In this document: in pieces, positions 2,958 to 49,880 of the stretch | Layout of the letters: the number at the start of each line of letters is the position of its first letter | Numbering within the stretch: position 1 is the stretch's first letter | Origin: Leucocoprinus leucothites | Taxonomy: Eukaryota > Basidiomycota > Agaricomycetes > Agaricales > Agaricaceae | Direction: 5' to 3' | Assembly: GCA_013368445.1 (NCBI GenBank) | Contig: JAACJO010000009.1 | Coordinates: forward strand, 1,674,001 to 1,738,000 | Length of the DNA stretch: 64,000 nucleotides | Notes under the pieces: generated by a model | Seen by the model: the letters and a program-made list of their open reading frames with translations, nothing else | Told to the model about the DNA's origin: nothing | Databases searched by the model: none | Made by a program: the position numbers and the translations under genes

Positions 2958-2960
2958 GTC

Positions 2961-11927: not shown

Positions 11928-12243
11928 CTGCTGGGACCAGGTGTCATGTCCCTCATATCGGTGTCTATGTTGCCCTGGGGGTTGGCAAAGAGAGCACAGA
12001 GTGCCTTGGTGACTGTTCTCTGGTCATCAGGATCCTCAGGGTCAGCTGGGAGGTTGCCCCACTTAGGCTGAGAGAAGACTTTGGCCAGGGTAATAAACCT
12101 GGCAGCCATGTCTTGAAGGGAAGGAGTAGTCAATGGGGAGGAGAGGTTCCAGCCCAGCCAGTTGGTAGTATCAGCAAAAGAGGTGGTGATTGCTCCAGCA
12201 TTGTCATTGACTGACAAACTGTCATCCAAATGAAGGGACGACA
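11928..12243 (-). repeat. Repeat E, left part (host of the G1 insertion)
   Basis: The minus-strand frame gives LSVNDNAGAITTSFADTTNWLGWNLSSP in pieces, then SQPKWGNLPADPEDPDDQRTV. The copy at 55620-56251 encodes the same residues. It breaks at 12243 with the 5-bp flank CGACA and resumes beyond 41923. I do not recognise the protein. It could be part of an element or of a multicopy host gene. Confidence 0.6.
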
Positions 12244-18969: not shown

Positions 18970-19049
18970 CATCCTCCTTTCCCTCTTACCACCATCATCG
19001 ATTTCTTTGACAGTGCCTACATACATATTGGTTATGAATACTATCAAAA

Positions 19050-21788: not shown

Positions 21789-21790
21789 AT

Positions 21791-26152: not shown

Positions 26153-26374
26153 GTATAACACCTCGTTCTATAGTCTCTCTCTTGAGCCTTCTCTATTTTG
26201 CTGGACTAATTGTGTATAGTCTATGTCTTAAGCAGTTGGAGACTGCTTCGTGTACCCCAGCTTGCTGTAGTGTACCATCTGTTTGTACTATTTAGTTGAA
26301 AGCAGACTGTGATCGAGCACTGCTATATAAATTCATTGATTAAAAAAAAAAAAAAAAAAAGCTTATGGTGCTGA

Positions 26375-27526: not shown

Positions 27527-27797
27527 TTCAGCATAGGATGTTGGGTACTGGATGTGGATGGAGCAGGGGTGTTGGATTTGGTAGTTGGGGCCTGTGACTG
27601 AGTTGTTGTTGCTGTTACTATTGTTGCCTTGATTGTTGTTGTTGTTGTTGCCAGGTTGAGATCAGCTGCTTGACAGATTCGGGTTGGAGGGATTGGAGGT
27701 AGAGGGCTTGTTGGGCTGCTTCCAACTCAGAGAATCAGCAGCATCCTTTTCTGCAGTGCAGGCATGAACACATTCACAGTCATGCTCCCATTGCCTT
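27527..27797 (-). pseudogene. G1 gag C-terminal fragment (Asn/Gln-rich)
   Basis: The minus-strand frame reads CTAEKDAADSLSWKQPNKPS, SNPSNPNLSSS, a stop, then a run rich in Asn and Gln encoded by GTT-type repeats on the plus strand, and ends near NYQIQHPCSIHIQYP. The composition fits the variable C-terminal part of a chromovirus Gag. No zinc knuckle is visible in this piece. Confidence 0.5.
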
Positions 27798-28527
27798 TGG
27801 CGATCCCTTACAGCAGGAGGAGGTAGTGCAGTGATTCTCAGACTGATGTGGCCCACTGCATTGTGAGCACCTGAGTGCATGGTTGTGACAGGTGGTGGTA
27901 GTGTGGCCCCAATGCCAGCATTGTTGACACTGGGGGGTCCTAGGGTGAGTGCACGCAGCCTTGATCATAGTCTGCACACCATCGAAGTTGAGGTATTTGC
28001 CGACCAGGCACTTAGCATTGGTGCCAGACTGAGAATCCCAAAGGTCAACCTAAACAGTGGTGGTGTTGGCTTTAGTGGAGTTGTGCATGATGTGCATGGA
28101 GGAGACGTCGGTGAAAATCTCCTTGAAGGGAGACAAATGCATATGGTCAGAGACATGTTGTGGGGTGGTGTGAATACCACTCATATAGTAAGGGATGTCC
28201 AGGATCTTGAGGTAAGATCTGGACCTGAGGCGTTTAGTCTTCAGCTCGAACAGGGCTGTGAAGGCTGAAGAGAGGGAGGATTCAATCACCAGTGCATCAG
28301 CATCAGTGGCAATGGAGTTGGTGTACAATGAGATGGTGTTGTATGCCCGGGCAATATTCTCAACATGAAGTGAGCTCTTTGTGTGAGTGAGGGAGTCATT
28401 GAGAAGGCGCATGGCCTTGTGATGAAGGTAGGTGATATCACCAGCATCACCAGTGAAGTCAAGCATGCACTGCATGTGCTGTCCACACCAATTCCAATTG
28501 CTCTGGTGGTGGAGTTGCAGTTTAAAT

Positions 28528-31500
28528 ATGTCTGGTAAGAACAATCAGATTTCCTCTGTTCATATCTATTCGCAAAACATGGGACGATCTTACTCCCTGG
28601 TTGACACTCTCCTTGAATCCAAACAGCTGGATTTCGACATGATTTTTATACAGGAACCCCCTTGGAACTACATACATAAAGCACCCTCTACGACTAACCC
28701 TGAAGGGGATGATGTCATAGGGGCACCTACTCACCCAGAGTGGCTGTGTATGGTTCACCCTACTAAGCCTAATGACCCCCGACCCCATACTCTGACCTAT
28801 GTCCACAGGTGTCTACTTCACATGAGACCCATCCTTCGACAGGAATGGGTTAACCATCGGGACATACAAATCTTGGGATTATTTAACCAGGGTAACTATA
28901 TCCACTTACTTTACATATACTCTGACTTGTCATCATCAGCAATTAACTTTCTGTTGATGAACTCCATCAACATTCCTAATATTGTATATATGGGAGGTGA
29001 TTTCAATTGTCGCTCTCCAGAATGGGATCCCTCAACTACTCATGTGCCTCTATCTGTGTTAACTCTAATGGAGTTAGTAGACTGTTACAATCTCAATAGG
29101 TCAACACTGACTGTATTTTCTCCAACCCATTTCTCTCCTATTGAAAGTCATGATAATTCAGTTATTGATCTCATTTTCTGTGCCAATAATTCTATCTCCC
29201 ATGTCATTGACGCCAATTCGAGACTTCCTTCGGATCATGCACCATTGATTATGGATCTTCCAATTCATCCAGATTATATTAATTATAAAAAATGCGTACT
29301 GCCAAAAGATAGCAATGAAGAGACAGCTTTTATTTCTCAAGTCTCTGAGCATCTAGCGGCTCTTGATTGTTCAAACATTCATTCCACTTCTTGTCTGAAC
29401 AATATCTCCAACTCTATTTCTCGAATCTTTTCTGAATCTTGGAATATTAATTCTAAAACTGTATGGATTACTAACCGGTCGAAGGAATGGTGGTCCCCCC
29501 ACTGTTCTGAGACTCTTCTTACTTACAAAAGAACAAAGGATTGAAAAGACTGGTGGGCATTCAGAGCAGCCACTCAAGCTGCCAAACACTCTTTCTTTGA
29601 TGCACTCATTCACGAAATCACATCGACCAACAAGTGACCCTGGGATCTTATGGAATGGGTCAAACAATGCAAACTCCCTGCCATTGAGGGTATTTGCTAT
29701 CAAGGACGAACCTGTAATGATCTGCCGGATCTATGGAATGCACTCCATTCATTGTACAATTCAGCATCTGGTCAACTGGTAAGCCCCAACATTCTGAATG
29801 AGATGAAATCCCTCCCCCCCACTCTTGGGCTAACTTCTCCGCCCTTGAACTCACAGAATCCCTCTCTTCATGTGCTAATTCTTCAGCACCCAGACCTGAT
29901 CATGTCTCCTGGAAACATTTGAAGTCAATCATTGCCCACAATGAATGCCTCAAAAACATACTACTCATTGCTAATGTGTGCGTACATCTCTCTCATTGGC
30001 CGAGTCACTTCAAGGACTCGGTCTCTATCATCATTCCCAAGCTGAATAAACCGGCCTATGATGCACCGAAAGTGTTTTGTCCCATTGTCCTACTAAACAC
30101 TCTAGGGAAATTAATCGAGAAGATGATCGCGCGACGCATGCAGTATGAAGTGGTATCTCTAGAAGTTCTTCACCCCAATCAAATGGGTGGAGTAATCCAA
30201 TGTTCCACTGAAGATGCAGGAGTATTCCTTACCCACATTATTCAGGCTGGATGGGCCAAAGGTATGATCACTAGTGTCTGTGCTTTCAACATCACCTAAT
30301 TCTTCCCCTCCCTGAACCATGAGATTCTTACTAACATCCTACGATGCCAGGGGTTTGCCCCAGAACTCGTAAACTTCTTTTCACATTACCTTATAGGTCA
30401 ATCCACTCAATTCATGTGGAACACGTTCCTATCTGATGCCCATGACACAGATGTTGGTGTAGGGCAAGGCTCTGCTTTATCCCCCATACTACCCACGCTC
30501 TATTTAGCGCCCCTCATGTTCATGTTTGATCAATGTGCTCGCTTACAGTCTATTCCCTCTTCCTTGTTATCCTTTGTTGATGATGGGCTTTGTATATCTC
30601 AAGTGAAGAACTACACTGACACTATTTCTTCCCTCAAATTAGCCTATTCCATCATTAATTCCATCTGCATTGATCTTGGACTTGTCGTCGAACATGACAA
30701 ATCTGAGGTCTTTCACTTCTCCCAACATCATAACAATTCTAATCCTCCCCTTGACCTATCCGACGTCAGTGGCCCTCTCCTGCATCCTAAATGTGTCTGG
30801 CAGTACCTCAGTTTTTACTTTGACTGCCGACTCTCATTTCAAGAACATGTCCGATATTATTCTACCAAAGCATTGTCCAGGGTGAAAGCTATGGGTATGC
30901 TAGGAATTCTACCCAAGGCCTCCTTCCTCTCCAGAAACACCTTCTCTATAGGTCATGCATAGTCCCTGTGGCAACGTATGGCTTCTGTTTGTGGTACTTT
31001 GAAGGCACTTGTAATAAGGTGCTCCTCAAATCCTTATCATCTATGCAGAGGCATGTGGCTCTTTGGATCACAGGCACCTTCCGCACTTCCCCTTCAGGTG
31101 GCGCCGAAAGTATTGCTGGACTTATCCCAATTCACCTCCATCTTCATGAATTAGCTATTTGTTCATCATACTGAGTTTCTACTCTACCCTCTAATCATGC
31201 GTTACATTCCCTCTTATCTGATTGTTTCTCTCTTAATGCTCCCCCTCATCCCCAATCGCTTCGCCTTCTTACTCTGGCCAAAAAAGCTAAAGTCAAAGGC
31301 CCTCTTGTTGATGTAGATAGTTCTCTTTCTCATCTTTCTGACTCCTTTTCTCCATTCGCTCCTGAATCAAAGCCTGGGTCTTGTCTCATGGACATCTTTT
31401 CTGATTCTATTCACTTTCATCCTTGTAATCACTTGGATAAACACGAGATGTATAAACATGTATCGACTCTTGACTCTGTTTTCTCCTCTTCCTCTTCCGA

Positions 31501-32478
31501 TCATAATTGTATTTCAGTTGTCACTGATGCTTCTGTTCCACTTGTAGGTTCCCTTCAGGTGGTTTCGGCAGCACATATATATCGTGGCAGAAAACAAGTG
31601 TCCCATGCAAAACAGGCAAGCAGTCAGGTATCATCTACTGACACTGAGCTCTATTCCATTCGCATTGGCATCGCCAAGGCTATTTCCCTCCAGTGCGATC
31701 ACATCATCCTCATCACTGACTGTCTTCCAGCAGCCAAGCTGGTGGTCAATCCCTCTATCCACTCGAGTCAATCACACTCCATCCAGGTCTGCCAACTTCT
31801 ATCCAATTGGCTTGCGGCCAAACCTTCTCGCTCTATCAACTTCTGGGATATCCCTTCCAAATGGCGCTGGAAGCCCCACCTCAAAGTCCACAAGGACGTT
31901 ACCACCACATGCATACACACCCCTCCTCATTCAGGCACTACTCTTGACTTCTTGCAACGCAAAGCCACCAATGACTGCCAGAAATCCTGGGAGTCCACAT
32001 TCTGGAAGAAGAAGTACCGTGGCAGTGGTTTTCTTCTGTCCAAAAATAATCGCAAGTTCCTTATCCCCACTTACATCAAAGGGGGCACCTGGCTTCCCTT
32101 AGCCAATGAGTCGCCATCACTATGCACACACATGACTCATGCCATCCTCAATCATGCTCCTATTGGAGCTTATCACGAGAGGTTCTTCCCCCTCGAGCCT
32201 AAGTCCTGTCACTGTGGCCATTGTCTGGAAACATGACATCATATCCTGTGTTACTGCCCCCTCTATCCCTTCCGCACTCAATGGGTGCAATGTGCTTTCC
32301 CTCAGTATGAGTTCCTCGTCGAGTTCTTGAAAAAGAACCTGGCCGCTTTTGCCTTCACCAACCATGACACACGTCCACCACCACCTCAAGCTCCTGTGCC
32401 CACTGAACCAAATGAAGGTGAACTATATTCTTTCATTTCATCTCTTTTCTTTTCCTTTGAGTCCGATCTCTATGTATG
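28528..32478 (+). pseudogene. LINE A3 ORF2, the least damaged endonuclease block
   Basis: It starts ATGTCTGGTAAG, 2 nt after the ORF1 stop. The first 339 codons are open and hold SQNMGRSYSLVD, FIQEPPWNY, YMGGDFNCRSPEW, SVIDLIF and LPSDHAPLIMDL, so all hallmark APE endonuclease residues remain. The RT keeps GQGSALSPILPTLY and SFVDDGLCIS. The RNase H keeps SVVTDASVPLVG and DTELYSIRIGIAKA. Stops lie at 29542, 29636, 30297, 31172 and 32234, and there is a frameshift near 29820 and another near 30905. It ends ESDLYV-stop. Confidence 0.9.
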
Positions 32479-32485
32479 ACACCTT

Positions 32486-33222
32486 TTTATTTTTATTTTT
32501 ATTTTTTATTCAAGTGTGACCCTGGAGGGGTTGCCAATTTATAATGCGGTGCGCGATAGCAGTCCACGCCCAACTATCTACTACAGGGAACCAATCCCGC
32601 TACCGACTACACAAGAGCAAACAACTGGGAATACATAATAGTCCTGTCCGAGACAATACACAAATCGACAACAGAAGGGGGCTAGGCATGTAACAAAATA
32701 CAAAGAAGTGAGACATTTACCGATATCACTGCATCTGACGGCAGGCCTTGTGGTTGGTGAGAGCCCATCCGGCGACTGGCAATGGATGGGGGATGATGCA
32801 TTGACACTAGGGAGCTCCCCCTAGGCCCGGGGCCAACCAGCAGAACCAGAATGACTTTGCAGCCAATTCTGATCAAACTGGTGGTGCCAGAACGCACACT
32901 TGTGGTCAGTAGCAGCATGTTCCTTGCCGCAATTGACACACTTGATATGGGGACAGGTTCCCCGGCAGGTGTGGGCTGGATGGGAGGGTTGGCCTTCGGC
33001 GATCCCTTACAGCAGGAGGAAGTGGTGCGGTGATTCTCGGACTGATGTGGCCCACCGCATTGTGAGCACCTGAGCACATGGTTGCGACAGGTGGTGGTAG
33101 TGTGGCCCCAACGCCAGCATTGTTGACACTGGGGGGTCCTGGGGTGAGCACACGCAGCCCTGATCATGGACTATACGCTGTCGAAGTTGAGGTATTTGCC
33201 GACCAGGCGCTTGGCATTAGCG
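32486..33222 (-). mobile_element. ORF1-only LINE family B, 3' part inserted in A3
   Basis: The 16-bp duplication CTATGTATGACACCTT flanks it at 32470-32485 and 33223-33238. The minus strand encodes the end of ORF1 (IRAACAHPRTP, CQQCWRWGHTTTTC, CSQCGGPHQSENHR) and then, with no ORF2, a ~300-bp 3' UTR and a TTTTTATTTTTATT (AATAAAAA-type) tail at 32486-32514. The 3' UTR carries GTGGACTGCTATCGCGCACC and ATTATAAATTGG, a diverged form of the LINE A 3' tail. The full 3' end directly after ORF1 shows that this family is naturally ORF1-only rather than internally deleted here. Confidence 0.85.
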
Positions 33223-33734
33223 CTATGTATGACACCTTGTTTAATAGTCTCTATCGAGTCTTTTCTATGTTGCTGGACTAATTGTGTATAGTCTCTGTCT
33301 TAAGTGGTCTTTGACTGCTTCGTGTACCCCAGCTTGCTGTAGTGTACCATCTGTTTGTAATATTTAGTTGAAAGTAGACTGCGATCGAGCACTGCTATAT
33401 AAATTCATTGATTAAAAAAAAAAAAAAAAAAAACCAGTGAAGTCAAGGAAGAGTTGGTGCCAGGTGGGGCCTGACATGGTCATGCAGGGCTTCTTTGCAG
33501 AAGGTGTGTCAGCGAGAGCAGCCTGATGCATCACAGCAAAGCAGTCAGGCTTGAGGGTGGGGTGGGACTAGGCAAGCTTGATAAGCACTGCCACAGATGC
33601 TGGGGTGTGGGCAACCTCAGCAAACAACTTCTTAGCTGCCGAGGGTGGGATGGGCGCTCACCAGGCTTGGCCATCAGACCTACTCTTAAGAGTGGGGGGC
33701 ACTTGAATGGGCACTTTGCCACTAGTGTGGGCCA

Positions 33735-34440
33735 TTATAAACAGGTTTATTGTCTTCATTGTCACCATCATGGCCCATAGATTGATTATCGGCATAGTCT
33801 GGACTATCAGAGTCACCTGGTTCTGAGGGGTCAGATGGTTCTCTGTCAGATGGCAGACTGCCAGGTGGGGCAGGAGTTCTGGGAGGACAGATATTTCGAA
33901 AACAATAAGGAGGCAGTGGAGGAGAACTAGCAGATTGAGGAGTTTCTGGGAGATTGGGATTAAGACAATGTGAATGGCAAGCATGGATACTGTGTTAGAA
34001 GGTGATGCACAGGGGACGTGTGGGAGGTCCTAGAAACCAGAGAAATCACCCAGGGAGCTCACAACTCACACAGGAATCTGTGGACAACTGTAAATGACTA
34101 AATTAACAAGATAGAGACTTGTACTCACCTGTGGACAACTGTAAATGACTGAGAGTCAAGAAAGCGTCCACAGGAGAGTTGAATATGCAGTCAGGTGATC
34201 TACAACTGACTAAGCAACCTCTGCATCAACTCTAACTTCACACATCAACAAATCAATCACAAATACTTGTAGACTGTCCAGAGCACATCTGACATACTGA
34301 TACAAGGACTATCATCAGTAAGACAAGAAAAGCTTGGGACAGGTGGAGGAGTGTGAGAGCATTTCCGCTCTAGTTGCACAACAGTGGAGGTCTTGCCCTT
34401 GATAGTGTGGGTGTTGACCATGATGACAGAAGTGAGAGTG
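33735..34440 (-). pseudogene. G1 gag N-terminal region, split by a Copia solo LTR
   Basis: The start MVNTHTIKGKTSTVVQLERK (34440) runs to LTDDSPCIS. After removing the LTR at 33993-34294 and one TACTG it continues IHACHSHCLNPNLPETPQ, a proline-rich stretch and an acidic stretch (SDREPSDPSEPGDSDSPDY, GHDGDNEDNKPVYNG). A family B LINE fragment follows at 33734. The first 28 bp upstream to the LTR (34441-34468) hold the leader. Its ATTATCAGA resembles part of an initiator-Met primer site but is degenerate. Confidence 0.65.
33993..34294 (-). mobile_element. Copia solo LTR, long form (302 bp), target duplication TACTG
   Basis: It starts TGTTAGAAGGTGATG and ends CATCTGACA, with TACTG at 33988-33992 and 34295-34299. 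It is 51 bp longer than the other full LTRs because GGACAACTGTAAATGACT occurs twice, separated by a segment containing TAACAAGATAGAGACTTGT. Confidence 0.92.
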
Positions 34441-34468
34441 CAACAGTAGAATCTGAGTCTGATAATAC

Positions 34469-34785
34469 TGTTAAGCATGCAAACACTATGGGTAGGAACT
34501 GATGTCTAGGACTGGATGACAGAGTTGGGACAGAGGTAAGATAGAAGCCAATTATCGAACATGGAAGTGGGTTGTGGCCTCAACTTATGTGTTGTGCTGA
34601 CTACTGACACTTGACCCGGATTTCAGACAAGATAAGAGAGCAGAGGATAAACAGAGAGCAGAGGAAAGTAGCATATCACTAAGTTGATTATCAGACTGAG
34701 GAACCCAAGTACAAAGTCGTACTACTTATATATGATGCAGAATATAGGATCAGATAAGGAAAACAAGCAAAGTAGTAAATGGAGA
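34469..34785 (-). mobile_element. G1 5' LTR, inner part
   Basis: It starts TGTTAAGCATGCAAACACTA next to the gag leader and matches 12244-12558 in order. It stops at GGAGA where LINE A4 begins. The other part is at 41734-41923. Confidence 0.88.
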
Positions 34786-34866
34786 CATATCCTTCTTTCC
34801 CTCTTACCACCATCATCGATTTCTTTGACAGTGTCTACATACATATTGACTACAAATACTACTGTT

Positions 34867-37617
34867 ATGACTGCACCATCGCATTGGGCGGACCTCAAAG
34901 GTACCCCACTGCTGTCTTTGGACCCTATGAACATCGCCGACACCGAAACACATGTCTCAACCTATAAGCACAACTGCTCTGCTTCACCCATGCTCTCTAT
35001 CAAATCGACTAGGCATTCTGTCCATGATGACGCCAAGTCTGCTGCCCTGTCCAGAGCTGGCTCTGATGAAGAGGAAAGTAGTGTGAGTGATTCAGATATG
35101 TCTGACAGCTCGACCCCCTCCTCCCCTATCATTGCCCCTACTGTACTTTCATGTGCAGTGTCACACTCATCTCTTAGAACTCCTCCTCCACTGTCGTTGC
35201 ATGCTAAACAAGCTCATGCTTGTGAAGCTCATCGACTGGATATCACACCCAAAGCCATCTCAAGAATGGCGTCAATGAGTGTGTATGATGGCTTCAAATT
35301 GCCAATTCCCTTCCGTCCTTTTGGGGAGGGATTCATAGGTGAGTTAAATCCTCCTGATTCTCTCAACTTGAACTCTTGTGGGGACGTGTGGAGTGACCAA
35401 GAGGATGGGATTCTCAGAAATGGGGAACCTACCACTCAGTTCTTTGGACCCCCACTCACCTCAAGGCTGCCTCATGCGATCCATGGATCCGCTGAGTCAG
35501 CAAATACTGTGCCATCTGGCACTCCAGCTACTTTCTTTGCCAGATCCTCTGATACTAATGATGTCACACCTGACATCACACATAATGTCACTAGTGATGT
35601 CACTGCACAGCTGCAGGGGTCTAGACCTGCACAGCCACACCTCCCGGATCTCAAGGATCCATCAAACACAGCCACCAAAGAAACTGTTATTGTTGGTGGA
35701 GCTGCTTTCAAAGCGCTTGAGGTGCTTAAATATGTTACTAACTTCTTTAAACATCACGCCACTCTGGGATTACACCCCGGAGAGAAAGACCCAAGGGTTC
35801 CCCAAATGGGGGAGCCCATATACTGTTTACTCACAACTATGTTCGAATCAGGCTGGGACCGTTTGCCCATTAATGGTGAAAATGGCCTCATGATCATCAA
35901 AGCATTGAAGCAATATTTCAGCCCTTCCTCTGACACTCCCATGACAGACTCTTCCCCCCCTCCAAAGGGCAAGGGCAAGGGTAAGAAGGCACATAAACCT
36001 TCTCCATCTCTCATCCCCACCCCCCTATTCCCACCTGGCATAGTTGTTGGGCAAACTAACCCTACAGCTTGTATTAATGATGACAACATGAACATCAATC
36101 AAGCCCCTCTGAATGAGGGCATCCTCTTTCCCCCCCAGAAGGATGTTTTGTCTTCTGGTAAAGCATGTGACATTCCGTCCATGCCAGGCTCCCATAAGGC
36201 GAAGAATAATGTTTCGTCTTCTAAACCTGCTGGTCCTATCTGCATATCACAGGCTTCCCCTCCACCTTCCAATCACATGACTCCTAGGAATGGGAATGGA
36301 AACTTTGAGCACTCAGTTGGACGCCCTTCCTCTGATGGCCAGGCTCAGTCATTGAAACCTAACCTGAAGGGCACCTCTGAGATGCTGCCCCCCATTCCCC
36401 CTCCTGACTGTAAGGCATCCACCAAACCCCTTACAGAACATTTTAACAACAAGAATGTGTCTTTTGCCGATGCTGCCCGACAGGGTGCCCAGCCTTTGAC
36501 TTCCTCTTCACCCTCTTCCTCTGTCAATGGGGTCAAGATGTGGGAAATGATCCTCGCCTTCCCTGAACTCTCCTACAACAAGGTCCTTGCCATGTACAAG
36601 GTGGGTTTTGGTGGCACCCAGTCTCAGGTGCCTGAACATGCGACCCCTAGCGCTCAGCATGCTAAACCTAAAATGATGACCCATGGTCCAACTCATTGTC
36701 AAGTCCTTATTCCCTTTGAGGGAAACATCATCGCTGATCACATTAAGGATTTCAATAAAGCAACGGAATTCTGTAACCGTGGTCTCACTGCCGCCCAATC
36801 CAAACTTCGTGTTGAGTCCATCTGCAAATTGTACAATGGAATTTCCATCGCCACCTTGGGTGTTGCTACTCCCAATGACCTCGATATCATCAAGTCCTGG
36901 CTGAAAAAAGCCTGGCAATTAGGAGACGCCATCCCCATTGAGCCCTGTCTTCCACAATCAAAATCCTTTCTCAAAATTGTCAGTGTCCCTTATTGGGCAG
37001 CCAATTCTTCAAATCCCCTATCCCCTGCCTTCGTTGAGCAAGCCCTTGGCCAATCATCACTCTTTGAAAATATCATACTTGCTACCTGCCCTTGCGTCAT
37101 GAAAGCTTCCCCAAAATCAGACACAGCTGTTGTATGGTTTGACATCTGGGATTCTCAGAATGGTACCAAAGCCAAAACATTGGTCAACTGCACTATCAAT
37201 TTTGGCCGACATATCAGCACTATCCGTGCCACCAGTATGCACCCTGGTGTTGCACAGTGCAGGAACAGCTGGCAGTGGGGTCATCCTACTCATGCGTGTC
37301 ATGCCCTTGGTGCTCGCTGTCAAATCTATGGTGGCCCACACCATGTTGAGAACCACTGCTCCATGGCTTGGTGCTGTAAGGCCAATCCTAAATCAAACCC
37401 TCCTTGTGATGCCACTCCTGATGGCATACCATGCCCCCATCTTGAGAACTTCAAATGCCTTAACTGTAAAGGCGATCACCATGCTAATGACACTAAATGT
37501 CCATTTTGGAGAAACAGGTTCGACTGAACTTGGCACTCTAACAAAGCTGCCGAGTCACGCACTGCACGTGCCATCTGCGCCAATACCAATCACTCCAGTG
37601 GTGGAGTTGCAGCTTAA
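34867..37617 (+). pseudogene. LINE A4 ORF1, best preserved copy
   Basis: From MTAPSHWADLKG the frame is open for 887 codons up to a single TGA at 37525-37527 where A2 has TGG. Reading through it adds 29 residues to TAA at 37615. Features: acidic SDEEESSVSDSDMSDSS (residues about 60-80), ITPKAISRMASM, the NFFKHHATLGLHPGEKDPR / PIYCLLTTMFESGWDRLPIN block, a basic KGKGKGKKAHK stretch, the globular domain with EMILAFPELSYNKVLAMYK and PIEPCLPQSKSFLKIVSVPYW, and the knuckles CRNSWQWGHPTHAC (second Cys is Ser), YGGPHHVENHC and CLNCKGDHHANDTKC. An in-frame ATG in LTR sequence at 34684 would add 61 residues but lies outside the LINE. Confidence 0.92.
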
Positions 37618-37619
37618 AT

Positions 37620-40600
37620 ATGTCTGGTAAGAATAATTCCATTTCTTCAGTCCATATTTATTCACAAAATGTGGGACACTCTTATGCCCTGGTTGACACC
37701 ATCCTCGAGTCTAAGAAGCTGGACTTCAACATCCTTTTTCTACAGGAACCCCTGTGGAATCACATCCACAAAGCACCCTCTATGACTAACCCTGAAGGGG
37801 ATGATGTCCTAGGTACTCCTATTCACCCCGAGTGGCTGTGTATGGTTTGCCCTACCAAGTCTAACGACCCCAGACCCCATACTCTGACTTACATTCACAG
37901 ACGACTACTTTGCATGAGACCTATTCTTAGACAAGAGTGGGTTAATTACTGAGATATTCAAGTCTTAGGACTATTTAATTGGGGTAATTATATTCATCTC
38001 CTCAACATCTACTCTGACTCATCATCTTTGGCAATAAATTTTCTCTTGACAAACTTCATTGACATCCCTAATATCGTGTTTATGGGAGGTGATTTCAACT
38101 ATTGTTCTCCAGAATGGGACCCCTCAGCTACCCATACCCCTTAATCTGCGATAACTCTAACGGAGTTAGTGGATTGCTTCAATCTTACTAGGTCAATACC
38201 AACCATTTCCTCTCCAACCCATTTTTCTCCTATCGAAAATCATGACAATTCAGATATTGACCTCATTTTTTGTGTGAACATTTCCACCCTTCATGTCATT
38301 GATGTAAATTCGAGATTGCCTTTGGATCACACACCTTTGCTCATTGACCTCCCGATCTGCCCAGACTATATTAATTATAAAAAAAGTGTATTGCCTAAAG
38401 ATAGCAATGAAGAGACCGCTTTCATTTCTCAGGTCTCAGAGCATCTAGTGGCCCTCGATTGTTTGAACATTCATTCTACCTCCTGTTTGGACAATATTTC
38501 TGACTCCATCTCTTGTATTTTCTCTGAATCATGGAATACGAACTCTAAAACCATATGGATTACTAATCAGTCAAAGGAATGGTGGTCCCCCCATTGTTCT
38601 GAGACTTTACTCATTTACAGAAGAACAAAAGACCAAAAGGACTGGCAAGCATTCAGGGCAGCTACTTGAGCTGCCAAATGCTCTTTCTTTGATTCATGAA
38701 ATTGCATCAACCAACAAACGACTCTGGGATCTCATGGAATGGGTCAAACAACGCAAACTCCCCGCCATTGAGGGCATTCATTATCAAGGATGTCCTTGTA
38801 ATGACCTCCCATATCTATGGAACACTCTTCATTCATCATATAATTCAGCCTCCGGAAGACCAGTAAGCCCTAGCATTTTAAATGAAATGAAATCCCTCCC
38901 CCCCCATTCTTGGGTGAACTTCTCTGTGCTTGAACTCACTGAATCCCTCTCATCCTGTACTAACTCATCAGTGCCTGGTCCAGATCACATGTCTTGGAAA
39001 CACCTCAAATCTATCATCACCTATAACAATTGCCTCAAAAATATGTTACTCATTGCTAATGCGTGTGTACATCTCTCTCATTGGCCGAGTCACTTCAAAG
39101 ACTCGGTCTCCATAATCATTCCCAAGCTGAATAAACTGGCCTATGATTCCCCAAAAGTGTTTTGCCCCATTGTTCTACTAAACACTTTAGGAAAACTAAT
39201 CGAGAAGATGATTGCACAATGCATGCAGTTCAAAGCAGTGTCTCTAGAAATCCTCCACCCAAACCAGATGGGTGGAGTCATCCAATGCTCTACCAAAGAC
39301 ACAGGTATCTTCCTCACTCACATCATTTGGGCTGGATGGGCCAAAGGTATGATCACCAGTATTTGCACCTTTGATATTGCCCAGTTCTTTCCCTCTCTAA
39401 ATCACATCATACTCACCAATATCCTGCGATACCAAGGATTTTCCCCTGAACTTGTAAACTTTTTCTCCCACTACCTCATAGGTCGATCAACTCAATTCAT
39501 GTGGAATACTTTCTTATCTGATGCTTATGACGCAGATGTTGGCATAGGGCAAGGATCTGCTCTGTCTCCTATACTCTGGGCATTATACTTAGTGCCTCTC
39601 ATGTTCATGTTCGATCAATGTGCTTGACTACAATCCATTCCCTCTTCCCTTCTATCCTTTGTTGATGATGGGCTTTGTATATCTCAAGTGAAGAACTATG
39701 CTGACACTATTTCTTCCCTCAAACTAGCCTATCCCATCATTAACTCCATCTGTACTGATCTCGGGTTAGTTGTTGAACATGACAAATCTGAGGTCTTCCA
39801 CTTCTCTCAACGTCACAATGACTCAAACCCCCCTCTTGACTTATCCAACATTGGCGGTCCCCTCCTTCATCCAAAATGCTTCTGGCATTACTTAGGCTTC
39901 TACTTTGATTATTGTCTTTCATTCCAAGAACATGTTCAATACTATTCCACCAAAGCATTATCCACAGTGAAAGCTATGGATATGCTAGGTAACTTCACTG
40001 GAGGCCTCCTACCTCTCCAGAAACGTCTCCTTTACAGGTCATGTGTTGTCCCAGTGGCAACATATGGCTTCCGTCTATGGTACTTTGAAGGTGCTCATAA
40101 CAAATCACTTCTCAAATCCTTATCATCTATGCAGAGACATGCAGCTCTTTGGATCACAGGTGCTTTCTGCACTTCTCCTTCTGGTGGCACTGAAAGTATT
40201 GCTGGACTTGTCCCAATCCACCTCCATCTTCGTAAATTAGCTATTCATTCATCATACCAAGTTTCTACTTTACCTTCTAATCATGCATTATGTTCCCTTT
40301 TATCTGATCATTTCTCTCTTAATTCCTCCCCCCATCCCCAATCGCTTCGTCTTCTCACTCTGGCAAACAAAGCTAAAATCAAAGGCCCTCTTATTGATGT
40401 AGACAATTCTCTTTCTCATCTTTCCAATTCCTTTTCTCCATTTGCTCCTGAATCCAAACCTGGTTCTCATCTCATGGACATTTTTCCTGACTCCATCCAC
40501 TTCCACCCTTGCAATTGCTTGGATAAACACAAAATGTATAAACATGTATCATCTTTTGACTCGATCTTTTCCTCCTCTTCTTCTGATTGTAATTGTATTT

Positions 40601-41567
40601 CAGTTGTTACTGATGCCTCTATCCCTCTTGTAGGTTCCCTTCAGGCAGTTTTGGCAGTACACTTATATTGCAGCAGACAACAAGTGTCCCATACAAAACA
40701 GGCAAGCAGCCAGGCATCCTCCACAGATGCTGAACTCTACTCCATTCGTATTGGCATTGCCAAGGCCATTTCCCTCCAATGCGACCACATCATTCTCATC
40801 ACCAACTGTCTCCCAGCAGCTAAGTTGGCAGTTGATCCATCCATCCACTTGAGTCAGTCACACTCTATCCACATCTGTCAGCTACTATCACAATGGCTCA
40901 CAGCCAAACCATCCTGCTCCATCGACTTCTGGGACGTCCCATCCAAGTGGCATTGGAAGCCTCATCTCAAAGTCCATAATGATGTCACTACCACATGCAT
41001 CCATGCCCCTCCTCATATGGGTGCCACCCTTGACTTCTTGCAACATAAAACCACCAATGACTGCCAGAAATCTTGGGAGTCTACATTCTGGAAGAAGAAG
41101 TACTGTGGTAATGGTTTCCTTCTTTCAAAAAAGAACTGCAAATTCCTCATCCCCACTTATGTCAAAGGGGGCACATGGCTTCCCCTAGCCAATGAGTTGC
41201 CATCACTATGTGCACACATAACTCGTGCCATCCTCAACCATGCTCCAATTGGAGCTTATTGTGAGAGATTCTTCCCCCTCAAACCCAAATCCTGTCATTG
41301 CGGACATCATTTGGAATCACGGCATCATATTCTGTGCTATTGGCCTTTATATCCCATCCACACTCAATGGGTGCAATATGCCTTCCCTCAGTACAAGTTC
41401 CTCGTCAAGTTCTTGAAAAAGAATCTGGCCACATTTTCCTTCACCAATCATGACACACGTCCACTGCTGCCTCAAGCTCCTGTGCCCACCAAACCAAATG
41501 AAGGTGAACTATATTCTTTCATCTCTTCTCTTCCTTTTTCTTTTGAGTCCGATCTCTGTGTATGACA
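37620..41567 (+). pseudogene. LINE A4 ORF2, RNase H half intact
   Basis: ATG lies 2 nt after the ORF1 stop (TAAATATG). The endonuclease (SQNVGHSYALVD, FMGGDFNYC, LDHTPLLIDL) is broken at 37950 and 38143. RT shows VFCPIVLLNTLGKLIEKM, GQGSALSPILWALY and SFVDDGLCIS, with a TGA at 39625. From about 39640 to 41567 the frame is open, including SVVTDASIPLVG, ASSTDAELYSIRIGIAKA, SKWHWKPHLKVHND and the terminal zinc-like CHCGHHLESRHHILC. It ends ESDLCV-stop, the family terminus. Confidence 0.9.
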
Positions 41568-41733
41568 CCTCATTCCATAGTCTTTCTTTCGAGTCTTCTC
41601 TATTTTACTGGACTAATCATGTATAGTCTATGTCTTAAGCAGTCTTTGACCACTTCATGTACCCCAGCTTGCTGTAGTGTACTGTCTGTTTGTACTATTT
41701 AGTTGAAAGCAGACTGCAATCAAGTACTGCTAT

Positions 41734-41923
41734 TTACTATTAAACAGTTGTCAGAAAATTTTGACAAGGCAGTATGAATTAATGAAATGGAAGATGTCAG
41801 AATAAGTCCAAAGGCAAAAGACCAATAAAAACTGAAATAACCGATATGCAAAAGCAGATAGGAGTTCAAGAAAATAATACCAAATTCAAACTGTCAGCCA
41901 TTCTTGGGGATTGGCTCATGACA
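41734..41923 (-). mobile_element. G1 5' LTR, outer part
   Basis: It continues the LTR from TTACTATTAAACAGTTGTCAG to the terminal CATGACA at 41923. The following CAACA is the second copy of the G1 target duplication. Confidence 0.88.
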
Positions 41924-42698
41924 CAACAGCCCGAAGGCTGCAAAAGAGTTCTCTCAACTGCCTTGCAACAGCATGGAGACATCAGAGACAGGTGGAGGTG
42001 GTCAAGAGCCTGTGGGGGTTGGAGAAAGCGTCCATTGATGCGATACCAAGCAAGAGCCTCTGAGGCTGGGTGGGGAGGCCAAGTGCAATGAGGGATGACT
42101 GCCGGGGGCAGCAGAGGCAGCCCTTGACCTGCATTGGCCAGTGGGGGTGGGTAGGAGGTCCAGGGGAGCCTGGGGAGTGCCCAATAGAGGATCAGGGGAG
42201 AAGAGGGACAAGTAGCCCCCCCTTCTGTCAGTGTTGGTGGGGGATCCATTGTTAGAGATGCTCCAAACAGTCCTTAGATGATGTGATTAGATATAGAGTT
42301 GATGATGTAGACAGACTTGATTAGTTAGTGGTCATGTGATGTATGTTGATCTTGCCTGTGGACACAGTGTTGACTCTCAGTCATTTACCAGTGTCCACAG
42401 GTGAGTATCTAGTTTCTATGTTGACTCTCAGTCATTTACCAGTGTCCACAGACACTCTGGTCCCATTCCTGAACTGCTAGGACTGATATTCAGTCAACCA
42501 CTGCCTGGATTCTAACATCTGTAGGTGATCCCACTGATTTGGCCCCATCATGGCCTTGGGCGCAACATGGGGACATTGTATACTGGATTACAAACTAATC
42601 GGACTAGTAAATGCTGTTCAAGGACATTGAGGACAGTGATCAGAAGCATGGGAAGAAAACTTCCAGTTGGTGGTATGAGATCAAGAAGCAATGACCTA
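41924..42698 (-). repeat. Repeat E, right part, with a Copia-like LTR inside
   Basis: It resumes at GCCCGAAGGCTGCAAAAGAG, which matches GCCCAAAGGGCACAAAAGAG at 55862 and completes the empty site with 12243. It runs to 42249, is interrupted by an LTR, and resumes from 42518 (GGTGATCCCACTGATTTGG) to about 42698, parallel to 56168-56251 and 56916-56986. Translation is poor. No recognised domain. Confidence 0.6.
42250..42517. mobile_element. Diverged Copia-type LTR (268 bp) with internal duplication
   Basis: It starts TGTTAGAGATGCTCCAAACA and ends GATTCTAACA. It is related to the Copia LTR through TCTCAGTCATTTAC and CCAGTGTCCACAG. The ~30-bp unit beginning GTTGACTCTCAGTCATTTAC occurs twice (about 42369 and 42420). 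The flanks TCCAT and TCTGT are not an obvious duplication. Confidence 0.7.
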
Positions 42699-42970
42699 AC
42701 CCTAGCTTGAGGAGGGCCACTAGCGTGCACTTTAGGAGGTGCTTGCTTGGGCAGTAAGGTGGAGCAGGCTGGGGCAGGCTGATGATCCAGGGGCAGTTGT
42801 TTGGGTGCTTCAGGGTCACCCATGCTGATGTCACATGGACCTGCTTTGTCAGCAGATCCATGGGACAACTCATGGTTGCCATGTGGTTGATTAGGGCCAG
42901 TCAAAAAGCCCCCAGAGCAAAGGAAGGAGTCAACCATAGGCCACCCCAGCTTCTGCAGTACCAAAGTGAG
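42699..42970 (-). pseudogene. ORF1-only LINE fragment fused to Copia gag
   Basis: The minus strand carries SHGSADKAGPCDISMGDPE and KQAPPKVHASGPPQA, the linker motif of the B/D families, within an open frame of 138 codons that also covers non-LINE residues upstream (GWPMVDSFLCSGGFLTGPNQ). The junctions with Copia gag (near 42900-42970) and repeat E (42698) could not be placed exactly. Confidence 0.5.
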
Positions 42971-43266
42971 CTAGGTGTTCTCCCAGCCCCTCCTCCTGAA
43001 TTCCCATAGGCTCCCGATGAGGTAGAGAGTGAATGAGCATTTGGCCATGTTGGTCATGACAGTGGCAGGATCAAGGTTCAACATCCATTTGCCAAATCGA
43101 TGAAGACCTTCATAGGTGGCCACAGCCTCCTCCTCCAAGTCAGGTCCAACAGAAGAGGGAGCAGAGGGGCCAGCCCAGGGGCCTGGAGCCATGCCTGCAT
43201 CTCACCTGCCCAGGTAGAGTAGTTGGTAGCATTGAGCTTGGCAAAGTTGGGGCTAGAGGAAGACAT
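42971..43266 (-). pseudogene. Copia gag N-terminus
   Basis: MSSSSPNFAKLNATNYSTWA then GEMQAWLQAPGL is the typical start of a Ty1/Copia Gag. A one-base shift near 43190 moves the frame to DLEEEAVATYEGLHRFGKWM, then CSFTLYLIGSLWEFRRRG. It follows the 5' LTR and a ~390-nt leader (43267-43658), so this is the 5' end of a minus-strand Copia element truncated soon after the Gag start. Confidence 0.82.
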
Positions 43267-43658
43267 CTGGGCAGACTAGGAAGCTGAAATGCAGTGTAGG
43301 GCGATGAGAAAAGGGTTGGTGGTTGTGTAACAAGGGGTATATGTGGCAAGCGGTGGGATCGACAGACTGGCGAAGTTCGGAGTGGAATGGAGTGATGGTT
43401 GGCATAGGAGGAGCAGAGGAATATTAGGATTAGGATAGAGTGATTAGGAATGAAAGTGGGATAGTGGAACGAGAAATGGTCGGAACACGGCGAAACTTGG
43501 TGAAGTTGCGGAGACACATGAGATCGACGGGTGTACGCGGAGGCGACCGGAGCGACGCGAAAACGAAGGAGAAAACACGAAAACGGCGGATAGGAGAAGG
43601 GGAAGACAGTTGGGGAAGAAATGGAGCAAAAGTCGTTGTCTGAGGCTTCTAGAGGCTG

Positions 43659-43670
43659 AGGCCCATAACC
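43659..43670 (-). other. Copia primer binding site (half initiator-tRNA type)
   Basis: On the minus strand GGTTATGGGCCT follows the LTR's terminal AACA directly. It is complementary to the anticodon-loop region of initiator tRNA-Met, as in Drosophila copia-type elements that prime from a cleaved tRNA half. The match is short and read by eye. Confidence 0.55.
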
Positions 43671-43921
43671 TGTTAGAAGATGATGCACAGGGGACATGCA
43701 GGAGGTCCTAGAAACCAGAGAAATCGCCCAGGGAACTCACAACTCATACAGGAATCTGTGGATAACTGTAAATGACTGAGAGTCAAGAAAGCATCCACAG
43801 GAGAGTTGAACATGCAGTCAGGTGATCTACAACTGACTAAGCAACCTCTGCATCAACTCTAAGTTCACACATCAACAAATCAATCACAAATACTTGTAGA
43901 CTGTCCAGAGCACATCTGACA
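43671..43921 (-). mobile_element. Copia 5' LTR (251 bp)
   Basis: The plus-strand text runs TGTTAGAAGATGATG to CATCTGACA and matches 2083-2333 in reverse complement over its whole length. It is paired with the primer site and Gag start to its left, so it is the 5' LTR of a minus-strand element. The 3' half is gone. Confidence 0.9.
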
Positions 43922-44076
43922 TATATATGAGTCCTGACTAATCATGTATAGTCTTTGTCTTAAGTGGTCTTCGACTGCTTCGTATACCCCAGCTTGCTGT
44001 AGCATACCATCTGTTTGTAATATTTAGTTGAAAGCAGACTGTGATTGAGCACTGCTATATAAATTCATTGATTTTA
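43922..44076 (+). mobile_element. LINE A 3' UTR fragment
   Basis: From GACTAATCATGTATAGTC to TATATAAATTCATTGATT it matches the last ~150 bp of A1-A4. No coding sequence remains. Confidence 0.8.
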
Positions 44077-44096
44077 AATATATATATATATATATA
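44077..44096. repeat. (TA)n microsatellite
   Basis: About nine TA units follow the LINE A tail, where a poly(A) would be expected. The run joins directly to the 3' end of a minus-strand family B LINE. Confidence 0.85.
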
Positions 44097-44548
44097 AGTC
44101 CTGTCCAAGACAATACACGAATCAACAGCAGAAGGGGGCTAGGCATGTGACAAAATACAAAGAGATGAGACATATACTGATATCACTGCATCTGAAAGCA
44201 GCAGGCCTTGGGGTTCATAGGGGCCCACCCAGTGACCAGTGATGGATGGGGGACAATGTGTTGACACTAGGGAGCTTCCCCTAGGCCTGGGGCCAACCAG
44301 CAGGACCAGAATGACTTTGCAGCCAATCCCAATCAAACCGGTGGTGCCAGAATGCACATTTGCAGTCAGTGGCAGTGTGTTCCTTGCTGCAATTGATGCA
44401 CTTGATATGGGGACAGGGTTCCCTGGCAGATGTGGGCTGAATGGGGGGGTTGGCCTTTGGCAACCCCTTACAGCAGGAGGTGGTGGTGCAGTGATTCTCA
44501 GACTGATGTGGCCCACCACATTGTGAGCACCTGAGCATGCAGTTACAA
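44097..44548 (-). pseudogene. ORF1-only LINE family B, knuckle region and 3' UTR
   Basis: The minus strand reads LRCSQCGGPHQSENHCTTTS, then NPPIQPT, CPHIKCINCSKEHTATDCKC and FWHHRFDWDWLQSH to a stop at 44281, followed by 3' UTR. This is the best frame for the second and third zinc knuckles of family B. It is cut at 44548 by the tail of a family D element. Confidence 0.8.
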
Positions 44549-46115
44549 CTTTTTTTATTTTTTATTTTTTATTTTTTATTTTTTATTTTTTATTTTTAAA
44601 ATCAATGGTTTATTACGTGGTGCCTGGTCACAGTCCGCACTCACCAGCATAATACAGGGCCTAAGTACCACTATCTAAACCACATACTACAAAGACAAGA
44701 ATAGATAAGGTCCTGTCCAAATATAGTACACTACTCGATGGCAAAGAGACATGGCATAATAACAAAGAAATGAATGAAACTACAGTCCAACTTGCAGACC
44801 TCTAACAGTAAGCTTACATGTGCATGTGGCCCTAGCAATGTGCTGATGGGGTTGGAAGATGCATTGAAGCAGGTACACAACCTACTACCGGGGCCTCCTA
44901 TTGTCCTTCTTGTGACAGCCAAGCCAATCACGGTCAAACCAGTGGCGCCAGAATAGGCACTTTTGATCATCAGCTGTATGGTCACCCTTGCAGTTGATAC
45001 ATGAGATGTGGGGACAAGGCTCCCCAGCAGGTGTGGGCAGGATGGAGGGGTTTGCCTTTGGACTCCCCTTACAGCATGATGATGTAGAGTGATGATCTCA
45101 TTATGGTGAGGACCACCACACTGGGAACACCTGAGTGTGCAGTTGCAGCAGGTGGGGGTAGAGTGACCAAAGCGCCAGCAGTGCTGGCACTGAGGGACAC
45201 TGGGGTGAGCATGGGCGGGCTTGATGACAGCCTGCATACTGTTGAAGTCAAGGTACTTGTTGAGGAGCTTCTTGGTGCTGGCTCCTGACTGAGAGTCCCA
45301 AACCAAATGGTTGCGGTGTCAGCCTTGGGGGAGTTGTGCATGATGTGCATGGATGAGATGTCAGCAAAAGTGTCCTTGAACAGAGACAATCACATATGAT
45401 TGGTAATCTGAACTGGTGTAATATGAATGCCATTCACATAGAAGGGGACATCAAGGATCTTAAGATAGGACCTTGACCTGGGGTGGCACGTCTTCAGCTC
45501 AAATGGGGCGGTGAAGATGGAGGGGATAGCAGACTCAACGACAGTGATGTCAGAGTCCGAGGGTACAGCAGAGGTGTACAGTGCAATAGTGCTGCACACC
45601 TTGGTGATATTCTCAATGCACAAGGAAGACTTGGCATATGGGAGGGCATCATTGAGAAGGCACATGGCCTTGTGGTGAAGATAGGTGATCTCACTGGTGT
45701 CCCCAGTGAAATCAAGGAACAATTGGCAGTGGGTGGGCCTGGCAGTGGTCATGTGTGGCTTCTTGGCAGAGCCAGCAGTGGCAGTGGTGGCCTGATGCAT
45801 TGCGGCGACACAATCAGGGTCAAGGGAGGGGTTTGCCTGTGCCAGCTTGATGAGTGACACAGGCAGCACCAAAGCGCTGGAACAGGTGGCTTCTGCAAAC
45901 AAGTGCTGACAAGGTACTGGAGCAGAAGTGGGGATGGGCGCCTTTGTGGGCACTCGAGGGGGGCCACTAGCATGCGCCTTAGGGGATGCTTGCTTGGGCA
46001 GTACAGAGGGGCAGGCCAGGGCAGGCTGCAGTACCTTGGGCATTTGCTTGGGTGCCTTGGGGGAGCCCATGTCAATGTCACATGGTTCTGCTTTGTCAGT
46101 GGATCCATGGGTTGC
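44549..46115 (-). mobile_element. ORF1-only LINE family D, 3' two thirds with tail
   Basis: The tail is an array of TTTTTTA units (44549-44617, AAAAATA-type on the element strand). The 3' UTR is short, with GCGGACTGTGACCAGGCACC and CATTGATTTT echoing the LINE A tail. The ORF has a stop at 44731 and no ORF2. It reads upstream through CQHCWRFGHSTPTC and CSQCGGPHHNE, then a frame change near 45300, to FLDFTGDTSEITYLHHKA and HGSTDKAEPCDIDMGSPK. It is cut at 46115 by a plus-strand family B element. Confidence 0.85.
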
Positions 46116-47766
46116 CATCCCTCCTTGTCCTCTTACCACCACCATCAAAAGTTGGTGTTTGTTCTGAGGCATCCTTACATCATCTATCTACAGTAATATG
46201 GGTAGGCACAAGTCTAAAGCTACTGCCAACCAGTTTGCCATGTTTGAATCCAAGTCCGCCATCTCTGACGATGAGCTCAACATCGCTGAGATGGCTGAAG
46301 ATGACTACTTCAACCCCTACGACAACCCACTCAACATGTGTGGGTTCTTTGGCCCCCCCCAGGCTGATGTTTCATCGCCTGGTCCCTCCCAGCTGACAGC
46401 TGACATTCTGTCGCCATTGGTTGCTCCCCCAGTGGCTGACATTTTGTTGCCACTCAAGCCCTTCACAGCTGGTGGAACCACCTTCTACCCTGTTGATGCT
46501 CCCCCTGCTGTGCCCAAGTCAGTGACCTCCTCCAAGGGAAAGAAGAAGGAGCTCACCCCAAAGCGCACCCTCAACAACCTCATATCCTTCCTTAAGTGGT
46601 TGGATACCATTGAAGACCCCACCAATATCATGGTTCAAGACACGCAGTCCATGGTTACCTGTTTAGCCAAGGCCTTGCACACCATAGCCAGTGAGCTGAA
46701 GATGAGCAGCATGCTGATCACCTCTAACTCTCTCAATGCCACTGGCTGGGAGATGTTTGGAGATTTTCTGGGGGACTTCGGTCATAGATTCTCGACCGAG
46801 GCCTCCCCTAAAGTGATGCGTGTCATCCACAAGGCAACCCACAGATCTGCTGACTCAGCGGGTCCATGTGACATCAACATGGGTTCCCCCAAGGTGCCCA
46901 CTTTACCACCCCCAGATCGTCGGCCCGCCCTGGCCCGTCCCTCCTTACTGCCCAAGCCGGCGCCTGTAAAGGTCCACACTAGTGGCAAAGCGCCCATTCA
47001 AGCACCCCCCGCTCCTAAGGTTAGGTCTGATGGCCAAGCCTGGCGAGCGCCCATCCCACCCTCAGCAGCTAAGAAGTTGTTTGCTGAGATTGCCCATACC
47101 CTGGCATCTGTGGCAGCACTTATCAAGCTAGCCCAGTCCCACCCCACCCTTGAGCCTGACTGTGTTGCTGCAATGCATCAGGCCACCCTTGCTGATGCAC
47201 CTTCTGCAAAGAAGCCCCACATGACCACATCGGGCCCCACCCAATGCCAACTCTTCCTCGATTTCACTGGCAATGCTGGTGATATCACCTACCTCTACCA
47301 CAAGGCCATGCGCCTTCTGAATGACTCCCTTACTTACGTGAAGAGTTCGCTTTGCGTTGAGAACATTGCCTGGGCATATGACACTATCTTGTTGTATACC
47401 AACTCTGTCACCACTGATGCAGATGCACTGGTGATCGAATCCTCCCTCTCTTCAGCCTTTACAGCCCCGTTCAAGCTGAAGACCAAACGCCCCAGGTCCA
47501 GGTCTTACCTCAAGATCCTGGAGGTCCCTTACTACATGAGTGGTATTCACACTACCCCACAACATGTCTCCAACTGTATGTGCTTGTCTCCCTTCAAGGA
47601 GATATTCCCTGATGTCTCCTCTGTGCACATCATGCACAACTCCACCAAAGCCAACACCACCACCATTTGGGTCGACCTTTGGGATTCTCAGTCTGGCGCT
47701 AATGCTAAGTGCCTGGTCAGCAAATATCTCAACTTTGACAGTGTGCAGTCTATGATCAAGGCTGCA
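46116..47766 (+). mobile_element. ORF1-only LINE family B, 5' end to near knuckles
   Basis: It starts with CATCCCTCCTTGTCCTCTTA and an 82-nt leader, then an ORF1 that is open to the truncation point. It is cut at 47766, where truncated Gypsy G2 pol sequence begins, so the knuckles and 3' end are missing. It supplies the intact 5' two thirds of the family. Confidence 0.88.
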
Positions 47767-49817: not shown

Positions 49818-49880
49818 TTCTCATTTTACAAGTCGCCCTTCCTCTAAAGTATGTAAGTGTACCTGTACAACATCTTTTTG

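Follow-up and report, generated by a model that had tools for sequence, protein, structure and literature searches.

ORF1-only LINE families of Leucocoprinus leucothites and a candidate helper LINE

HAL1 elements of mammals have a first open reading frame (ORF1) of the L1 clade, which is not known to contain CCHC knuckles, and they carry target duplications and an A-rich tail. HAL1 is described as a non-autonomous long interspersed nuclear element (LINE) that encodes only the ORF1 protein (ORF1p), an L1 derivative with several independent origins (PMC5753468), and HeT-A of Drosophila as an element with a Gag-type open reading frame (ORF) only, without pol, for which the Pol protein of TART is proposed as trans helper and which adds to chromosome ends in head-to-tail arrays (PMC4467039). 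For the EKA/Avrk1 (Kryze-like) sequences of Blumeria, a powdery mildew, an RT-RH domain was reported downstream of one in 34 full-length Avrk1-like fragments, and the authors view these sequences as truncated LINE ORF1s co-opted as effectors (PMC4641428); a further paper reports that in pairs of short interspersed nuclear elements (SINEs) and LINEs the non-autonomous RNA has its 3' end in common with a stringent-type helper LINE (PMC3747384). Apart from Blumeria EKA, no fungal ORF1-only LINE family was found in the literature, most subscription journals lying outside the search. Here we describe four ORF1-only LINE families, B, D, E and F, in Leucocoprinus leucothites (Agaricaceae; assembly 47.0 Mb), starting from a stretch of 64,000 nucleotides (nt) at C9:1674001-1738000, hereafter the window. 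Our analysis suggests that these families are quite probably obligate non-autonomous LINEs that make their own ORF1p and take their enzyme in trans from an autonomous LINE, most likely the family designated LINE A.

Families B and D share one plan of about 2.3 kb: some 80 nt of leader precede a single ORF of 621-635 aa (the range includes F), which is followed by a 3' untranslated region (UTR) and an A-rich tail. The D element starts with CATCCCTCCTTG(T/A)CCTCTTACCACCACCATC, has its start codon after about 80 nt, and continues with an ORF of 634-635 aa (628 in copy L065) and a 3' UTR of about 340 nt that runs into the A-rich tail. From 68 genome matches of the D query, 20 full-length copies were recovered in the loci read, and L065 is a 21st. 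A full-length B on contig C28 (L060) follows the same plan as D with 634 aa; further relatives are F (L063, 621 aa) and E (pieces in L055 and L035). The ORF1 core matches RNA recognition motif (RRM) structures, and cysteine/histidine knuckles of a predicted RNA-binding type are also present. The ORF1 of B and D is homologous to that of LINE A and other fungal LINEs, while no Pfam or NCBIfam family was above cut-off for D or B ORF1. Relatives of the LINE A ORF1 in the protein database comprise proteins of L. birnbaumii, Tricholomella and metagenomes. In D ORF1s that otherwise resemble each other, an N-terminal segment (residues 130-205, approximately) occurs in two unlike versions, one in L015, L016, L020, L021 and L023 and the other in L002, L003, L005 and L007, a pattern suggestive of exchange through recombination.

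The copies of the window that bear on this plan are as follows.

32470..32485: target-site duplication, left copy, CTATGTATGACACCTT (exact string search)
32486..33222, minus strand: family D, 5'-truncated (D positions 1583-2304), with ORF1 C-terminus and knuckles, 3' UTR and A-rich tail (blastn 88.6% to full-length D; direct reading)
33223..33238: target-site duplication, right copy, the same string, perfect over 16 bp (exact string search)
44549..46115, minus strand: family B, C-terminal half of ORF1 (broken frame), 3' UTR and A-rich tail, without ORF2 (blastn 83% to full-length B)
46116..46197, plus strand: family D 5' leader, whose first 26-29 nt are common to LINE A in better-kept copies (sequence comparison; the shuffles were run on other D, B and F copies)
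46198..47766, plus strand: family D ORF1, about 520 aa open, cut off ahead of knuckles and 3' UTR (ORF list; D positions 2-1653 at 82.8%)

Nested in LINE A, the copy at 32486-33222 belongs to family D, because it is 88.6% identical to D and only 73%, over part of its length, to family B. A preliminary description of this DNA had placed the tail directly after ORF1 both here and in the B copy at 44549-46115, and direct reading agrees in both cases; in the latter, ORF1, 3' UTR and tail are contiguous and the N-terminal half is missing. The adjoining leader (46116-46197) is that of a separate D copy (46116-47766, plus strand) that lies head-to-head with the B copy and lacks the D 3' part. The idea that B and D in this arrangement form a bidirectional unit was considered and rejected, as partners and distances vary and nesting accounts for the cases read.

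In the same-strand interval 294-522 bp downstream of ORF1, an endonuclease is present at 0 of 150 ORF1 ends of the B/D/F type, compared with 51 of 60 LINE A ORF1 ends. Among the best-scored candidates of the genome, the claim that B and D consist of ORF1, 3' UTR and A-rich tail with no second ORF (ORF2) is thus borne out. The query was the 110-aa C-terminal part of D ORF1 alone, for which the best 150 of 805 candidates (identity 76-99%) were taken; the LINE A set is the best 60 of 150 ORF1-end rows and hence consists of well-kept ones, and the endonuclease set holds at least 195 places from searches scoring the best 150 rows each. Genome counts in this study rest on such best-scored candidates and are not complete censuses. 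For D, the ORF1 end passes without a break into the 3' UTR in 39 of the 40 main rows (best of 450 candidates), and for B in 32 of 40 (best of 552 candidates); as these queries contain the 3' UTR they are biased toward ORF1-only copies, and the test with the ORF1 end alone was therefore run. A single B/D/F end has an endonuclease within 1200 bp (at 940 bp), and on reading this is a nest of D, a B fragment and an inverted copy of another LINE family, LINE Q. Family E is more distant and falls outside the 150; in one copy read (L055) the 3' end follows ORF1 with no ORF2 in between.

Two candidates for an ORF2-bearing D were rejected. A full LINE with D-like ORF1 and Q ORF2 had been suggested by the equal spacing of C13:1160372/1164363 and C32:2027/6018; on reading, the C13 case is a D copy with a Tc1/mariner element in its 3' UTR beside a separate Q fragment, and the C32 case (L047), read only around the endonuclease, was judged a duplicate of C13 from the equal spacing. 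The other candidate, P0002 (D9756_004290, annotated endonuclease), was the only protein matched by D ORF1 in the protein database, where the best 7995 candidates by shared words were scored, and it joins a Q endonuclease fragment to a nested D. The name endonuclease/exonuclease of this gene model is an annotation artefact.

Marks of retrotransposition accompany these elements. By script, 13 of the 21 full-length D copies have target-site duplications that surpass the 99th percentile obtained from 420 mismatched flank pairings; in L004 and L007 they were missed by the script and are visible on reading, and none is claimed for the other six. The duplications are 11-19 bp long, and A-rich tails and 5' truncations were also observed. 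Copy L065 on C28 combines an intact ORF of 628 aa with a perfect 15-bp duplication. The preliminary description had reported a 16-bp target duplication at one copy, which was recovered as a perfect repeat around 32486-33222, and its conclusion that B and D retrotransposed in the ORF1-only form holds with the duplications and A-rich tails of the full-length D copies. On contig C3 one D copy apparently sits inside a second one, where the query overlaps by 17 bp. In the right flank of L023 the duplication after the tail directly abuts the 5' end of a second D, so that two D copies share one target site.

The ORF1 of D is under purifying selection. An intact ORF is present in nine of the 20 full-length D copies (L065 lies outside the 20), and an open frame of at least 620 aa without stops is present at 31 of the 150 scored B/D/F ORF1 ends. 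Among the nine intact ORFs (36 non-independent pairs) median omega is 0.34 (range 0.18-0.47), and 0.26 (0.10-0.44) with CpG codons masked. A plain neutral omega of 1 would be misleading here, because neutral simulation with the observed transition bias gave medians of 0.56-0.65 (1st percentile 0.40-0.50); with CpG codons masked the medians were 0.55-0.59 (1st percentile 0.34-0.40). Only 17, 20 and 24 of 240 simulated neutral copies were stop-free under three settings, as against nine of 20 real copies. The ORF1s of B and D are 53-58% identical at a synonymous distance of about 1, and both are intact with 634-635 aa. ORF1 was hence maintained through the ORF1-only phase, since it is under selection and B and D are intact at this distance.

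Comparison of the element ends revealed a likeness to LINE A on both sides. At the 5' end, the first 26-29 nt of D, B and F copies score 34-38 against LINE A, a level reached by none of 1000 shuffles; at the 3' end, the likeness of the last 40-59 nt to LINE A likewise exceeds all of 1000 shuffles per pair. Against LINE A copy L037 the 3' ends of D_L007, D_L005, D_L065, E_L041 and B_L060 scored 68, 45, 43, 40 and 38 (each 0/1000). In the same order, these five ends scored 51, 30, 31, 35 and 34 against a decayed LINE A (window 33369), 34, 34, 27, 35 and 17 against LINE Q copy L022, and 29, 29, 22, 30 and 22 against LINE Q copy L034. A decayed E copy was not significant against the LINE A 3' end (206 of 1000 shuffles as high), whereas the better-kept hairpin end of L041 was (0/1000). 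The pattern GGACTG...GCAC...TTGATT, described earlier as kept from LINE A, is thus upheld as a 3' match and is not private to A, its core being found in Q as well. Because Q matches A at this core, the 3' motif is a property of a wider LINE group, and because Q carries the core too, the 3' pattern alone cannot name the helper.

The LINE A 3' ends that were read terminate in TATAAATTCATTGATT or a point variant of it, except in one cut-off copy (window 41736); the B 3' end reads AATAAATCATTGATT, and the D copies L004 and L007 end A-like in TTCATTGATT. Most other D ends read carry the hairpin GGCGACCCCTCCGGGGTCGCACTTGATT, for which a C/T-tolerant pattern has 71 matches in the genome, none of them on C28, and no match in the reversed control. 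Family E and some D copies carry TTTGGACCCC...GGGGTCCACTGATT, and the two hairpins differ by compensating swaps. A run of T before the run of A is common to the tails of A, B and D/E. In the 3' stem 91% of cells are paired and the covariation score is above all 500 shuffles; pairs changed on both sides are not above shuffles (497 of 500 as high), and as related rows inflate the test it is not proof. Folded as single sequences, the ends of A, B and A-type D do no better than shuffles, of which 56, 35 and 31 in 200 fold equally well; the two hairpin forms do fold better (2 and 1 of 200). A stop-free ORF2 of 1329 aa was found in four LINE A copies, all on C28 (best 62 scored), and no intact ORF2 was seen in any other LINE. 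LINE A, which in most comparisons matches better at the 3' end, has the 5' end in common with these elements and has an intact ORF2, is the best candidate for the helper, and the mobilisation of B and D would be in trans.

In a tree of 45 ORF1s, the B, D, E and F sequences (10 rows) form one clade (100/99) and LINE A (five rows) another (100/99); without long branches the ORF1-only clade has 100/100. With some long branches included in the tree, the approximately unbiased (AU) test rejects the ORF1-only families plus A as one clade (p 5.07e-5). The families are therefore not deletion forms of LINE A, because their ORF1s make up a clade of their own and a union with A is rejected. By parsimony, a single loss of ORF2 preceded the divergence of the families, as there is one ORF1 clade and no ORF2-bearing member was found among the best-scored matches.

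These results place B, D, E and F beside the known systems in the following way. Like HAL1, B, D and F encode ORF1 without ORF2 (0/150 among the best-scored ends), and B and D moved as a unit with target duplications and an A-rich tail. They differ in that the four families B, D, E and F share a single ORF1 clade, which stands apart from the proposed helper, whereas HAL1 derives from L1; in that B and D belong to another LINE group and another kingdom, with a shared 3' end sequence rather than poly(A) alone; and in that their ORF1 has an RRM-like core together with cysteine/histidine knuckles. The earlier proposal of a HAL1-like fungal counterpart is a fair one for the way in which the elements would work, and is not supported for descent from LINE A. 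The likeness to HeT-A is the possession of a gag-type ORF only; unlike HeT-A, B and D insert internally with duplications, and the LINE places lie mostly in internal blocks of large contigs. A relative of the TAHRE kind (the same ORF1 plus pol) was not found among the best-scored matches. EKA/Avrk1 resembles B and D as high-copy LINE ORF1 sequences in a fungus; B and D have full-length ORF1, complete ends, duplications and no ORF2-bearing relative found, and no effector role is suggested for them. SINEs, which have a Pol III promoter, are not known to carry a LINE ORF, whereas B, D and F keep an ORF1 of 621-635 aa, which in D is under purifying selection, and autonomous LINEs differ from B and D by having ORF2 with endonuclease and reverse transcriptase. 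The four families would work like HAL1 and HeT-A and are a member of neither, being not descended from the proposed helper and not telomeric.

The proposed life cycle, deduced from the letters and from comparison, would run as follows. Transcription probably starts at the shared 5' end, so that the RNA of about 2.3 kb would begin at CATCCCTCC and encode one protein, ORF1p, with its predicted RRM-like core and cysteine/histidine knuckles. This protein may coat its own RNA in cis, as selection on ORF1 suggests. Endonuclease and reverse transcriptase would be supplied in trans by an autonomous LINE, most likely LINE A, that recognises the shared 3' end, and target-primed reverse transcription by the borrowed enzyme would produce the A-rich tails, 5' truncations and 11-19 bp duplications. 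ORF2 would have been absent before the families split, with ORF1 kept functional since. More tentatively, with slightly more doubt than confidence on our part, this may be an old ORF1-only lineage of at least four families that never regained ORF2 and tracks a helper of another ORF1 clade by keeping or copying its 5' and 3' ends. The differing 3' ends of D, A-like in L004 and L007 and hairpins in most others read, would fit switching or adaptation to the helper.

Several observations weigh against an ORF1-only lineage served by LINE A. By script, eight of the 21 D copies have no duplication; the top observed omega (0.47) overlaps the neutral null; and a rare ORF2-bearing relative could escape best-candidate searches, family E being outside the 150 counted. 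Others bear on the identity of the helper, and they are what an alternative with the same ORF1-only life style and a helper other than LINE A would draw on, this helper being either LINE Q or a LINE since lost, from whose ORF1 the B/D/E/F clade arose. The 3' core of A and D also occurs in LINE Q (Q against A scores 38 at the core, 0/1000 shuffles); Q_L022 beats the decayed window LINE A for D_L005 (34 vs 30) and ties with it for E_L041 (35); the hairpin of most D 3' ends is absent from all LINE A ends read; and the ORF1-only clade groups with Q and Tricholomella P0033 rather than with A (97/95), lying nearer Q than A with weak support (92/80). The placement of Q is unsure, however, because its branch is very long (1.52), and with the better-kept L037 as the LINE A copy each of the five 3' ends scores higher against A than against Q_L022 or Q_L034. 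Moreover, no intact LINE Q ORF2 was seen, and Q has no match on C28, where intact B, D and F copies lie. We regard a helper other than LINE A as unlikely, yet as the chief competitor.

It is very improbable that the copies are processed versions of an ORF1 message, made by a poly(A)-driven reverse transcriptase from a parent LINE whose ORF2 was spliced out or lies elsewhere, and have no life cycle of their own. A single ORF, an A-rich tail and duplications do have the look of a retrocopy, but no ORF2-bearing source was found among the 150 ORF1 ends, and diverged families with like termini and an intact, selected ORF1 point to serial transposition of the copies themselves. Still less credit can be given to ordinary LINEs seen as fragments, with ORF2 lost copy by copy through deletion or nesting. 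The window, full of nested and truncated copies and with incomplete B and D copies, invites such a view, which is refuted by the 20 full-length D copies: their ends are very similar, the ORF is followed immediately by the UTR, and most of them have duplications outside; the sole interrupted UTR among these 20, in L051, holds a DNA transposon. An ORF1-only lineage with its enzyme from LINE A is the explanation we prefer.

Further copies of these families and of LINE A in the window are listed below, the B and D rows and the D/F-type fragment resting on sequence comparison.

2335..2963: family B fragment (minus strand)
11265..11928: family B 5' part (minus strand)
18956-18969 and 26361-26374: perfect 14-bp duplication GCTTATGGTGCTGA flanking the LINE A copy 18970..26360 (exact string search)
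18970..26360: LINE A copy, decayed, with ORF1 and ORF2 (endonuclease, reverse transcriptase), of the proposed helper family (plus strand)
27791..28463: D/F-type ORF1 fragment (minus strand)
28464..33432: LINE A, 5'-truncated, host of the D insertion 32486-33222 (plus strand)
33434..33736: family D central fragment (minus strand)
34789..41736: decayed LINE A copy lacking its 3' end (plus strand)
44086..44544: family D 3' fragment adjoining the B tail (minus strand)
53605..54449: family B 5' part, leader and N-terminal ORF1 (minus strand)
54449..55619: family D 5' part, leader with N-terminal and central ORF1 (minus strand)

Frames resembling remnants of long terminal repeat (LTR) retrotransposons at 48481-52093 (minus strand) adjoin the D copy that ends at 47766 and may have removed its 3' half. 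Tc1/mariner-like transposases, recognised by eye, lie at 57334-58353 (plus strand, with an open frame of 339 aa) and 60895-61551 (minus strand); copies related to them occur in L034 and interrupt the D 3' UTR in L051. Of the other LINEs read, L061 (C27) is an old LINE without a tblastn match to D or A proteins, and L062 (C6:57800) is an old LINE A copy.

On each large contig the listed places of LINE A, Q, B and D cluster in one block: C1 2.55-2.73 Mb, C2 1.73-1.90, C4 1.07-1.31, C5 2.02-2.15, C9 1.53-1.74 (which holds the window), C10 1.34-1.52 and C13 1.16-1.26. These blocks may be regional centromeres made of LINEs. Contig C28 (471 kb) has at least 67 LINE places and intact A, B, D and F copies (L060, L063 and L065 among the loci read). 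The observed/expected ratio of CpG is 0.66-0.97 in three pieces of C28 against 0.25 in the window; one C13 locus (L016, L035) is equally CpG-rich (0.91-0.92), and C28 is thus not unique. In most of the window elements listed for this purpose (28464-32485, 34789-41736, 44549-46115, 46116-47766, 48500-52100 and 57334-58353) the ratio is 0.15-0.41 with an excess of TpG/CpA, a depletion as expected of methylation or of a process like repeat-induced point mutation (RIP).

In HAL1 and HeT-A the RNA-binding protein is retained and the enzyme is gone, SINEs, the most familiar LINE parasites, carry no LINE protein, and the question arises why keeping the protein pays. Families B, D, E and F are a further case, in fungi, with intact copies beside intact copies of the proposed helper in one genome of 47 Mb. 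This lineage offers a natural test of the need for ORF1p in cis, of the reading of the RNA 3' end by reverse transcriptase, and of how long a parasite persists without a polymerase of its own.

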